From Chitinophaga pinensis (lineage in GTDB: Bacteria > Bacteroidota > Bacteroidia > NS11-12g > UBA9320): a stretch of DNA of 64,000 nucleotides. The DNA is taken from the NCBI GenBank assembly GCA_945897885.1, contig CAMDGU010000001.1, positions 108,847 through 172,846 on the forward strand, given 5' to 3'. Positions 5,122-30,028 of this stretch are shown here, one piece after another; the stretch's first letter is position 1, and each line of letters starts with the position of its first letter. The position numbers and the translations under genes were made by a program. The notes under the pieces are model-generated. The model saw only the letters and a list, made by a program, of their open reading frames with translations, was not told the origin of the DNA and did no database searches.

Positions 5122-6567
5122 CTATCCCCTCGCTCTGTTCAGCCTGTCATTTATTGCCGGTCCCAATCCATTGGGAGGGAAATTTTCCGTAATAATTAGT
5201 TCCAAATTTAAATTATCCAGCTCACGCATGGCAGCAAAAAGATTATGTGCTGCTTCTTCCGTTGATTTATTTTGAGATAATACTCTTTGGTTTTCTATAG
5301 GTAAAAAAACAAATGGGGCATGGAATGTAATGGATCCAGTTTTTGTAATATCAATTGTGTTAAAATCAATTTCGGTGATAAGTTTTAAAGGCGTACGGGT
5401 GGCATAATGCTTATCCAATTGCCCGGGTGAATTGGGTTTAGAATGGGAGGCTATATTTAGAGAAACTTTCCCTATGCAGTTTTCAATAGCTTCAATACTT
5501 AATCCCCCAAGTCTCAAAATGGTCGCATTTTCTTCGTCTTCAAACATAACAATCGTAGATTCAAGACCAACTTCGCATGGTCCTCCATCCAATATATAGG
5601 AAACTTTATCTCCTAATTGTTCTTTCACATGCTTTGCTGTGGTTGGGCTTACATATCCAAAAGGGTTAGCACTGGGAGCTGCCAATGGAAAAGGAAGTTG
5701 TTTTAATAAATTTAACGTTAGGGGATGATTGGGAACTCGCAATCCTACGAATTGTAAACCTGAGGTAACCATGTCGGAAATTATTTCGCTTTTGGGCAGT
5801 ATTAGCGTTAAAGGTCCAGGCCAGAAGGCTTCCGCAAGTTTGTGTGCTTTTTCAGAAAATGAGGTTGTGTACTTACCTACTTCCTTTATGTCAGAAATAT
5901 GAACTATTAACGGATCAAAAAATGGACGGTTTTTAATTTTAAAACTATCAGTAACAGCTTCTTCGTTCAGAGCATTAGCTGCCAATCCGTAAACCGTTTC
6001 CGTTGGGATGGCTACAACATTACCTAACATTAGCAAACGAACTGCTAAACTTATTTGAGAAGTTTCATCTTTTGGCTCTAACTGTTGGTTTGCAGGGATT
6101 AGTATCGGGGTAATGTCTGAATTTAGGTGGTCTTCACTTGCTTCAAAATTATCAGAATTTTGTGTCAAAGCCTTGTCCCCCTTCGAAGGGGGTTGGGGGA
6201 TGATTTTATCACCATTAATCCAGTTTTCAATTCTTAATCCTACATTATGAATGTCGTTCATTACCTCTTCATCCTTAAATCTTAAAATGGAATACCCTAA
6301 TTCATTTAGCCTTTTCTCCCTTACATTATCTTTAATATAAATTTTTTCAATACCATGCGAACAACCATCTACCTCAATAATCAACTTTAAATCTCTACAA
6401 AAAAAATCAGCAATGTATTTGTCTATTGACCTTTGTCTTAAAAACGAAAAACCTTGCATTTGTTTGTTTCTTAGCAATTCGCACCACAATCTTACTTCAG
6501 CTTTAGTGCTGTGGTTTCGATGCGATTGGGCAAACTTTTTTAGGTTCTTGTTGTAATGGTGAAACAT
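5122..6567 (-). CDS. DUF559 endonuclease-like domain fused to L-threonylcarbamoyladenylate synthase (YrdC/Sua5)
   Basis: N-term DUF559 (TKAEVRLWCELLRNKQMQGFSFLRQRSIDKYIADFFCRDLKLIIEVDG.SH...LNELGYSILRFKDEEV); repeat-encoded linker IIPQPPSKGDKAL; C-term YrdC (VVAIPTETVYGLAANAL...KNRPFFDPLIVHI...FWPGPLTLIL...PLAAPSANPFGYVSPTTA). Confidence 0.85.
   Translation of the reverse strand: MFHHYNKNLKKFAQSHRNHSTKAEVRLWCELLRNKQMQGFSFLRQRSIDKYIADFFCRDLKLIIEVDGCSHGIEKIYIKDNVREKRLNELGYSILRFKDEEVMNDIHNVGLRIENWINGDKIIPQPPSKGDKALTQNSDNFEASEDHLNSDITPILIPANQQLEPKDETSQISLAVRLLMLGNVVAIPTETVYGLAANALNEEAVTDSFKIKNRPFFDPLIVHISDIKEVGKYTTSFSEKAHKLAEAFWPGPLTLILPKSEIISDMVTSGLQFVGLRVPNHPLTLNLLKQLPFPLAAPSANPFGYVSPTTAKHVKEQLGDKVSYILDGGPCEVGLESTIVMFEDEENATILRLGGLSIEAIENCIGKVSLNIASHSKPNSPGQLDKHYATRTPLKLITEIDFNTIDITKTGSITFHAPFVFLPIENQRVLSQNKSTEEAAHNLFAAMRELDNLNLELIITENFPPNGLGPAINDRLNRARG
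6175..6202 (+). repeat. GGGGG-type palindromic repeat, inside the fusion ORF
   Basis: gtcccccttcgaagggggttgggggatg. Confidence 0.75.
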
Positions 6568-6584
6568 TGGTCGGGGAGGAAACG

Positions 6585-6612
6585 CATCCCCCTGCCCCCT
6601 TCCAAGGGGGAC
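6585..6612 (-). repeat. GGGGG-type palindromic repeat, inverted relative to the 6175 copy
   Basis: catccccctgcccccttccaagggggac; its reverse complement matches the 6175 copy at all but a few positions. Confidence 0.75.
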
Positions 6613-6655
6613 GGCTGACGCATGAATAAATGAGACTGAGACAATTCCTAATTGA

Positions 6656-8020
6656 TTAAGTTCCTTTTCTCTTTAAGCTAAACTTCTCAATCTTATTGTA
6701 AAGATGGCTGCGTTGAATATCAATTTCCTGAGCTGTTTTGGCTACATTCCAAGCATTTTTCCTCAGCTTAGTATCAATAAAAACTTGTTCAGCAAAGTCT
6801 TTAAAATCTTGAAATTTTTCATATTGATTAACGATGTCTTCAAGATTTACAGATTTACCACCCATTGGGTTTGCAAAATTTATAATATCTGTTTCCGTTA
6901 TTTTATCACCACAAAGTATAACCAAACGCTCGATTACGTTTCTAAGCTCCCGAATGTTTCCACTCCAGGTTATGTTTTTTAACTCATTCATTGCTCCTGA
7001 AGTCAACTGTTTGCGGGGCATAGCGTTTTCTTCGCATATATCCGAAACAAATTTTTCTGCTAATAATGGAATGTCTTCTGTGCGTTCATTTAAGCTAGGT
7101 ACGTGAATTAAGATAACACTTAATCTGTGATATAAATCTTCTCTAAAATTGCCGGCATCTATTTCTTTTCGCAAATCTTTATTGGTAGCGGCAATTATTC
7201 TTACATTTACTTCTATTTCCTTCTCACCACCTACTCTTGTTATTTTATTTTCCTGCAAAGCCCTTAAAACTTTGGCTTGTGCCGAAAGACTCATATCGCC
7301 TATTTCATCCAAAAATATAGTTCCACCATCTGCTCTTTCAAATTGTCCAATTCGTTGTTTTATAGCAGAAGTAAAAGCTCCTTTCTCATGACCGAATAAT
7401 TCACTCTCTATCAATTCGGCGGGTATGGCAGCACAGTTTACCTCTACCATTTGCATGTTTGAGCGATTACTTTTTTCGTGAAGCCATCTTGCAACCAATT
7501 CCTTTCCGGTACCATTTTGGCCGGTTATCATAACACGGGCATCAGTTGGGGCAACTTTTTCAATGGTTTGTTTTATTTTTATAATTGCCGGTGAATCACC
7601 AATAATTTCCCGGGTTTTTGAAATTTTACGTTTTAATACTTTGGTTTCAATAACCAAATTATTTTTTTCGCAAGCATTTCTTACAGTGATTAAAAGTTTG
7701 TTTAAATCTGGTGGTTTGGCGATAAAATCATAGGCTCCACGTTTGGTAGCTTCTAATGCAGTTTCTATGGTTCCATGTCCTGAAATCATAATAAACGAAA
7801 CATCGTCAGCCACCCCTTTTACTCTTTCCAAAAGTTCAAGGCCATCAATTTTTGGCATTTTTATGTCGCAAATTGCTACATCATACTCTGTTTTGCGGAG
7901 CATGTCCAAGGCTTGCGCACCATCTTCAGCTACATCTATTTCATAGCCTTCATAGGTAAGTATTTCTTTTAGCGTTTCCCGAATACTGGCTTCGTCGTCT
8001 ACTATTAATATTCTTGACAT
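6656..8020 (-). CDS. Sigma-54-dependent response regulator (NtrC family)
   Basis: Receiver domain (ILIVDDEASIRETL...VAICDIKMPKIDG) plus AAA+ with GQNGTGKELVARWLH, ELFGHEKGAFTSA, GGTIFLDEIGDMS. Confidence 0.95.
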   Translation of the reverse strand: MSRILIVDDEASIRETLKEILTYEGYEIDVAEDGAQALDMLRKTEYDVAICDIKMPKIDGLELLERVKGVADDVSFIMISGHGTIETALEATKRGAYDFIAKPPDLNKLLITVRNACEKNNLVIETKVLKRKISKTREIIGDSPAIIKIKQTIEKVAPTDARVMITGQNGTGKELVARWLHEKSNRSNMQMVEVNCAAIPAELIESELFGHEKGAFTSAIKQRIGQFERADGGTIFLDEIGDMSLSAQAKVLRALQENKITRVGGEKEIEVNVRIIAATNKDLRKEIDAGNFREDLYHRLSVILIHVPSLNERTEDIPLLAEKFVSDICEENAMPRKQLTSGAMNELKNITWSGNIRELRNVIERLVILCGDKITETDIINFANPMGGKSVNLEDIVNQYEKFQDFKDFAEQVFIDTKLRKNAWNVAKTAQEIDIQRSHLYNKIEKFSLKRKGT

Positions 8021-21719: not shown

Positions 21720-21752
21720 CGAATTCCCCCTTATAAAGGGGGTTAGGGGGAT
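21720..21752 (+). repeat. GGGGG-type palindromic repeat
   Basis: cgaattcccccttataaagggggttagggggat. Confidence 0.7.
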
Positions 21753-21817
21753 TTTTTCAATTGAAAATAAATTGGGTATCGGAAATTTGTATTTTACAAA
21801 GAAACTTTGCCGAAGCA

Positions 21818-21848
21818 AATTCCCCTCTTGAGAGGGGTTAGGGGTGTG
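21818..21848 (+). repeat. GGGGG-type palindromic repeat (diverged copy)
   Basis: aattcccctcttgagaggggttaggggtgtg. Confidence 0.65.
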
Positions 21849-29566: not shown

Positions 29567-30028
29567 ATGTCGGGTACATTTTCACAAATCTACATTCAAC
29601 TCGTATTTGCCGTTAAGGGTAGAAATAGTTTAATAAGCAATTTATGGGAAGAAGAATTATATAAATACATAACAGGGATTGTTAGGAATAAAGAGCAAAA
29701 AATGTTAGCTATAAATGGAATGCCTGACCATATACATTTATTCATAGGTATGAAACCTTCTTGTTGCTTATCAGATTTGGTTAGAGAAATCAAAAAGTCA
29801 TCCAATAATTTTATAAATGAAAAAAAGTTTACAGATTTTAAATTTCAATGGCAGGAGGGATACGGTGCATTTTCATACAGTCATTCTAATTTGGATAACG
29901 TTATAAAATATGTGATGAATCAAAAGGAGCATCATAAAGTGTTATCTTTTAAAGAGGAATACATTGAGTTTTTGCAGAAGTTTGAAATAGAATTTAAAGA
30001 TGAATACTTGTTTGAGTGGGTTGTTTGA
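29567..30028 (+). mobile_element. IS200-like / RAYT-like Y1 (HUH) transposase
   Basis: AINGMPDHIHLFIGMKPS (HUH 'HIH'), KSSNNFI...FKFQWQEGYGAFSYSHSNLDNVIKYVMNQKEHHK (catalytic Tyr with NQxxHH). Confidence 0.92.

Follow-up and report, generated by a model that had tools for sequence, protein, structure and literature searches.

A DUF559 nuclease gene between inverted palindromic repeats: a probable minimal mobile element that also lies in frame within essential genes

The window (the whole stretch of 64,000 nucleotides that was analysed) carries a DUF559 nuclease domain that is joined in frame to Sua5, a tRNA-modifying enzyme (threonylcarbamoyl-AMP synthase), and is flanked on both sides by inverted palindromic repeats. 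The features of the locus, together with two lone repeat copies elsewhere in the window, are as follows.

5122..6567, minus strand: chimeric ORF of 481 aa, consisting of DUF559, a repeat-encoded linker (IIPQPPSKGDKA...) and Sua5
5131..5499, minus strand: Sua5_C domain of the host gene (Pfam E 2.7e-22)
5506..6033, minus strand: Sua5_yciO_yrdC domain of the host gene (threonylcarbamoyl-AMP synthase; Pfam E 8.4e-57)
6160..6640, minus strand: segment inserted relative to empty congener sites (borders approximate, about 20 bp, set by eye)
6175..6202, plus strand: inverted palindromic repeat, Sua5-proximal, with hairpin CCCCCTTCGAAGGGGG and tail TTGGGGGATG towards the nuclease
6223..6546, minus strand: DUF559 (Vsr-like, PD-(D/E)xK/EDxHD) nuclease domain with catalytic residues E, RQ, D, ExDG and H (Pfam PF04480)
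6585..6612, minus strand: inverted palindromic repeat, distal, with its tail towards the nuclease and an outward extension gacggctgacgcatg that is similar in congeners
21726..21749, plus strand: lone repeat copy without a nuclease
21822..21844, plus strand: lone C28-type repeat copy without a nuclease

The DUF559 domain occupies amino acids 8-115 of the chimeric ORF (Pfam E 7.6e-28), and its frame runs without a stop across the Sua5-side repeat, which is translated as IIPQPPSKGDKA, into complete Sua5/YrdC and Sua5_C domains. The insert lies between a response-regulator gene (6656-8020) and Sua5. A sequence-only reading of this DNA had placed inverted copies of one repeat at 6175-6202 and 6585-6612. 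Both fit the pattern CCCCCTTNNAAGGGGGNNDGGGG without a mismatch, far above chance (0 matches expected at up to 3 mismatches in 100 dinucleotide shuffles), and an alignment of the pair in inverted orientation spans about 33 bp (score 42). The same reading described a DUF559 coding segment between the repeats; the domain is there, but as an in-frame fusion to Sua5 and not as a free ORF. The two further copies that it reported at 21720-21848 are present and lack a nuclease, but they stand in direct orientation and differ in subtype (CCCCCTTATAAAGGGGG and CCCCTCTTGAGAGGGG, the latter being the subtype that brackets a DUF559 gene on contig C28). The Sua5 fusion, the insertion within many essential proteins, the spread past Bacteroidota and the kinship with homing endonucleases all go beyond that reading.

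All three DUF559 genes of the source genome (G000) lie between inverted palindromes, each pair of its own subtype (TTCGAA/TTCCAA, TTTGTAAA and CTCTTGAGAG). Approximately 16 separate sites in this genome match the repeat pattern; six are the brackets, and the others are not paired around a nuclease. A family-level pattern search finds the window repeat type in this genus only (G000, G005, G006 and G007). Sua5 is present in all seven genomes of the genus. Its site is occupied by an insert of about 480 bp in three (G000, G006 and G007) and empty in four (G002, G003, G004 and G005), so the empty orthologous sites that had been suggested as a check do exist. In the empty congeners the Sua5 frame begins straight after the response-regulator gene, and DUF559 and the C-run repeat are both absent from the displayed interval between the two genes. 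Sua5 is 82% identical to the window copy in the empty G005 and 81% identical in the occupied G006, indicating that empty and occupied forms occur in equally close relatives. G005 has kept the repeats while possessing no DUF559 gene, which counts against the reading of an autonomous element. Two window-type repeats in this congener are inverted, about 100 bp apart and without a nuclease (L301:560-730).

Bracketing was scored as the best local inverted match between the 200-bp flanks of the DUF559 domain (match +2, mismatch -3, threshold 30), and control windows had equal geometry but were shifted by 700-1100 bp. Among Bacteroidota, 68 of 133 DUF559 domains are bracketed versus 2 of 763 shifted windows (Fisher p 9e-62). 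A second set from a GTDB scan, which takes in isolates (Ilyomonas limi and Flavobacterium flabelliforme among them) and may overlap with the first by a few loci, gives 47 of 77 versus 1 of 585. PIN genes, a control family of small genes from the same phylum, are bracketed in 0 of 29 cases, while RAYT genes, the positive control, are bracketed in 25 of 39 (with slightly wider flanks of 250 bp). DUF559 genes elsewhere are thus strongly enriched for inverted flanking repeats, as the sequence-only reading had envisaged from one locus, and the shifted windows and the PIN control rule out chance or a repeat-rich neighbourhood as the source of the brackets. Nor are the repeats distributed independently of the nuclease: in a phylum sample searched with one common repeat pattern, DUF559 is carried by 16 of 19 repeat-positive genomes and by 151 of 379 others (Fisher p 1.7e-4). 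About half of the Bacteroidota DUF559 genes have no bracket of at least 30, which counts against the autonomous-element reading; decay is the simplest reading of the genes without a clear bracket.

Outside Bacteroidota, eight of 18 plasmid-collection loci score at least 30 with 220-bp flanks, a noisier set since, among the eight loci of the second batch, a score of 30 was attained by three shifted windows as well. The high-scoring loci belong to Pseudanabaena (2), Picosynechococcus (1), Deinococcus (4) and Sphingomonas (1); those scoring below 30 belong to E. coli (2), Neisseria, Sinorhizobium, Azospirillum, Pseudomonas, Photobacterium, a second Picosynechococcus and Synechocystis (2). On Deinococcus plasmids, DUF559 copies with brackets of at least 30 (L281, L293 and L295) occupy differing positions in related hpa clusters across species, which suggests separate insertions. 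A Pseudanabaena galeata plasmid (L296) has a strongly bracketed DUF559 within a very long CDS (from 1382) near brxC, possibly a BREX gene.

The host genes were identified by clustering DUF559 ORFs by host sequence and checking 20 representatives by Pfam/NCBIfam. Pfam recognises leucyl- and isoleucyl-tRNA synthetase (LeuRS and IleRS), RecG, methionine synthase (MetH), YgbB/IspF, SpoU methylase, guanylate kinase, chorismate synthase, PolyA_pol, HemD, a UvrD-type helicase, methylmalonyl-CoA mutase, MazG, HsdR, HsdM, GcpE/IspG, coproporphyrinogen oxidase, RNase H, a GATase_5 (PurL-type) protein and an Eco57I methylase. In total the unrelated host genes number more than 20, LeuRS is occupied at several positions and free intergenic copies exist as well; bracketing is found at all of these. 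The GTDB scan returned 37 LeuRS, 18 RecG and 11 MetH hosts, counts that do not estimate incidence because the scan query was of aaRS type. In RecG, the DUF559 domain sits between the two helicase lobes. Seven genomes in an order-wide search (G004, G042, G047, G049, G055, G057 and G065) each have a single strong LeuRS match, and their LeuRS ORFs are 1105-1272 aa long versus 922-925 aa in near relatives; the chimera still scores above the leuS family cut-off. One LeuRS position (site a) is occupied or empty between sister species, and in G049 another LeuRS site is occupied while site a is empty. Two separate bracketed DUF559 insertions are present in one LeuRS frame of a Bacteroidetes MAG (L168:3004-4479).

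Pfam scans of the 20 chimeras detect host domains and DUF559 but no Hint or splicing domain, which rules out an intein; the insertion appears to stay in the host protein. Homing into pre-existing lone repeats was likewise rejected, as the empty Sua5 and LeuRS sites are free of repeats.

The ends of the element are seen most directly where two copies with different hosts are compared. Between an IspF-borne and a TrmH-borne element the alignment covers 502 bp (70.5%), from exactly ACCCACCCCC to exactly GGGGGTGGGT; it stops at the repeat tips and the flanks are unrelated. In a set of elements whose exact ends are uncertain by a few bp, no obvious target-site duplication was seen, a point against the autonomous-element reading. 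The ORFs and Pfam matches within the window element include no DDE or HUH transposase. On a nuclease tree of 217 domains (about 105 columns, with many unresolved forks) the host label changes 52 times versus a minimum of 16. The IleRS copies require five changes for five rows and the RecG copies form one supported clade, indicating that repeated jumps and long vertical retention both occur. There is good support for mobility of the bracketed unit, as a whole, with its own repeat type and with no need for a repeat at the target. One genome contains a same-subtype pair of end repeats about 170 bp apart without DUF559 (L298), together with a bracketed element that has these repeats (L164); the pair looks like a non-autonomous derivative. 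Rfam gives no credible match, with one SNORD57 match far under the cut-off.

DUF559 is a common, functionally uncharacterised family, and E. coli ycjD is one of its members. A DUF559 profile finds in the PDB an N. gonorrhoeae DUF559 structure (3hrl) and the homing endonuclease I-Bth0305I (3r3p, E 9.6e-6). A Foldseek search with an AlphaFold model of the domain (pLDDT 89) returns 3hrl, 3r3p (8.1e-5) and Vsr (1vsr). I-Bth0305I is the nearest characterised relative. In the closest literature, DUF559 is grouped with the EDxHD homing endonucleases (PMC9403480), and a Caulobacter DUF559 protein (VsrA) has been reported as a Vsr-like enzyme (PMC12907096). Nearly all of 220 domains, fused or free, preserve the motif E...RQ...D...ExDG..H, with the catalytic D, E, D and H kept in 218-220 of them, and pairwise dN/dS of DUF559 is 0.00-0.17. 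Two of the three Sua5-fused copies (L002, L030 and L032) are altered in ExDG (E to V in G007, G to D in G006) while the window copy is intact, suggesting from these substitutions that activity may be decaying in the Sua5 lineage. A useful function would equally produce the very strong purifying selection on fused copies and the one old insertion in RecG, which counts against the autonomous-element reading.

The repeats vary together with the nuclease. Their tails point inward in 12 cases and outward in three in one nuclease clade, versus 13 inward and 71 outward in the remainder (p 1.6e-6), and similar repeats go with similar proteins (Mantel rho 0.38, 0 of 500 permutations, close relatives left out), although the common descent of the genomes weakens both tests as a partial confounder. 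A repeat's own partner is its best match in 68 of 114 cases, which is weak evidence because the segments were picked for matching each other. Inward tails in some lineages and outward tails in others are unlike ordinary terminal inverted repeats and speak against the autonomous-element reading. In both bracket repeats of one locus (L031, in G013), the main hairpin and the tail are separated by an additional internal hairpin of about 35 bp, whose position is similar in the two and whose sequence has diverged.

The explanation that we favour, and consider probable, is a minimal mobile element, autonomous and about 440-550 bp long, in which a DUF559 endonuclease gene lies between inverted C/G-rich palindromic repeats. 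Such an element would consist of one small Vsr-like gene and two inverted repeats, each a hairpin with a C-rich tail. The nuclease would recognise its cognate repeat, probably in the hairpin or cruciform form that the inverted ends can take, and would nick or cut it so that the unit is freed or copied, in a manner resembling TnpA-REP/RAYT but with unrelated chemistry. DUF559 itself would thus move the element, probably through nicks or cuts in its own repeats. The bracketed unit could enter intergenic or coding DNA, a repeat at the target being unnecessary, and intragenic copies would survive where they are read through in frame, the host protein gaining an unspliced nuclease domain at a tolerated position. 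Lone repeats and short repeat pairs would be solo or non-autonomous derivatives.

The repeats could instead be non-autonomous REPs moved by the Y1 transposase of a RAYT or TIRYT, with DUF559 as trapped cargo. RAYTs are present in the source genome and in 256 of 398 Bacteroidota genomes. The terminal inverted repeats of some Y1 transposases share GGGGWSAS (PMC3733652), a motif that would fit GGGGTGAG, the tail of one DUF559 repeat subtype, and this fit keeps the cargo model alive. It is nevertheless unlikely. Compared with RAYT flanks of the same genomes, DUF559 repeats reach a median of 15 and a maximum of 23, whereas the DUF559 partner repeat gives 30-66; the RAYTs have different repeats of their own, often with GGGTAGAA-type motifs. 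The RAYT of the window (Y1_Tnp, 29579-29923) is followed by its own palindromes CGACCCCGAAGGGGTCG and AATCCnnnGGATT (to 30240), which are unlike the DUF559 repeats. Repeat type and orientation follow the nuclease, and the PIN genes of the same phylum are unbracketed (0 of 29). At least 11 genomes with bracketed DUF559, as well as G004, have no detectable RAYT. By hand comparison of the bracket and Y1_Tnp results (E 1e-6), the 11 are G417, G334, G283, G457, G303, G294, G169, G249, G139, G500 and G465, including the single-contig assemblies G139, G169, G294 and G500. The different repeats and the bracketed copies in RAYT-less genomes disfavour a RAYT as the mobiliser.

Two other explanations concern homing and domestication. 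Classical homing, in which the DUF559 EDxHD endonuclease would cut a conserved host site, recombination would copy it in and the repeats would be incidental, draws on I-Bth0305I being the nearest solved functional relative and on the recurrent occupation of LeuRS, RecG and MetH, with the RecG copies in one clade. It seems quite improbable in view of the more than 20 unrelated hosts, the several LeuRS sites and the free intergenic copies, all bracketed, and of a gene that has no surrounding intron or intein; homing alone leaves the coincidence of the ends with the repeats without explanation. A domesticated repair or restriction domain, useful to the host proteins and fused to them adaptively, is very improbable as a general account, since most hosts (LeuRS, IspF, Gmk, AroC, HemD, MetH) are functionally unrelated and presence is polymorphic between sister species. 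The intact active sites and low dN/dS of fused copies, the recurrent fusions to RM/HsdR/HsdM genes and RecG and the Vsr-like Caulobacter protein (PMC12907096) fit domestication, and domestication of particular lineages such as RecG may be compatible with a mobile origin.

The proposed self-mobilised DUF559 element resembles several known systems. The comparison of nuclease and palindromes with REP/RAYT, already drawn in the sequence-only reading, holds, with enrichment, co-occurrence and empty sites all found. REP/RAYT (REPtron) and TIRYT/TIRtron systems also comprise a small gene in inverted palindromes, with lone and paired copies and a lineage-specific repeat type. They differ in encoding an HUH Y1 transposase where the DUF559 element encodes a PD-(D/E)xK/EDxHD (Vsr-like) enzyme; the DUF559 element has other repeats in the same genomes and is often in frame inside essential genes. 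The GTAG or CGTC tag at the foot of REP/RAYT palindromes is not seen on reading the DUF559 repeats, which have tails of the CCTCACCCC or GGGGGAT kind. EDxHD homing genes insert at a single conserved cognate site that mostly lies within an intron or intein. The DUF559 element shares with I-Bth0305I a related catalytic domain (sequence E 1e-5, Foldseek 8e-5) and a selfish nuclease, but has terminal palindromic repeats at many unrelated sites and no intron, intein or extra DNA-binding module. Rickettsia palindromic elements (RPE) are likewise palindromic DNA translated in frame in protein genes; they are about 150 bp long and enzyme-less, whereas DUF559 elements of about 440-550 bp have intact nuclease catalytic residues and occur in several phyla. 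Inteins also embed a nuclease frame in conserved essential proteins, but the DUF559 insertion is free of splicing domains.

The literature searched (open-licence PMC papers only) contains no prior description of a bracketed DUF559 element. A wider claim would make DUF559 genes a widespread, unrecognised class of autonomous elements in several phyla. Their stand-alone Vsr-like nuclease would nick or cut at hairpins, thereby mobilising its own REP-like ends and also, in trans, the lone repeats, and the elements would persist by invading essential genes in frame and without splicing; we hold this to be just as likely wrong as right. There is an even chance that bracketed DUF559, read as a selfish nuclease with REP-like ends, deserves a class of its own. 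If DUF559 is the enzyme of such a repeat-bracketed element, many uncharacterised nucleases and C/G-rich palindromic repeats so far lacking a known partner would be explained together, and the REP-plus-enzyme arrangement would have a second, chemically unrelated solution. Unspliced in-frame invasion of sole leuS copies and other essential genes raises the question of how often a nuclease insertion is tolerated, and for annotation, many chimeric proteins now pass for odd fusions.

Caulobacter VsrA and E. coli ycjD are DUF559 proteins as well, and ycjD has related C/G-rich repeats, but on its 3' side only, with no bracket detected (in E. coli HB101 the locus is L288:3778-4340), which counts against the autonomous-element reading. 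It does not provide exact occupied and empty borders, because strains lacking ycjD hold the eef efflux operon there and so offer no clean empty site. A 2026 paper describes ycjD in place of the eef operon, and the part consulted does not discuss mobility (PMC12817139). Of 5426 E. coli genomes, 3367 contain a stretch that spans 80% or more of the ycjD query, and a 41-bp part of the ycjD 3' repeat is matched alone in a genome without the remaining query.
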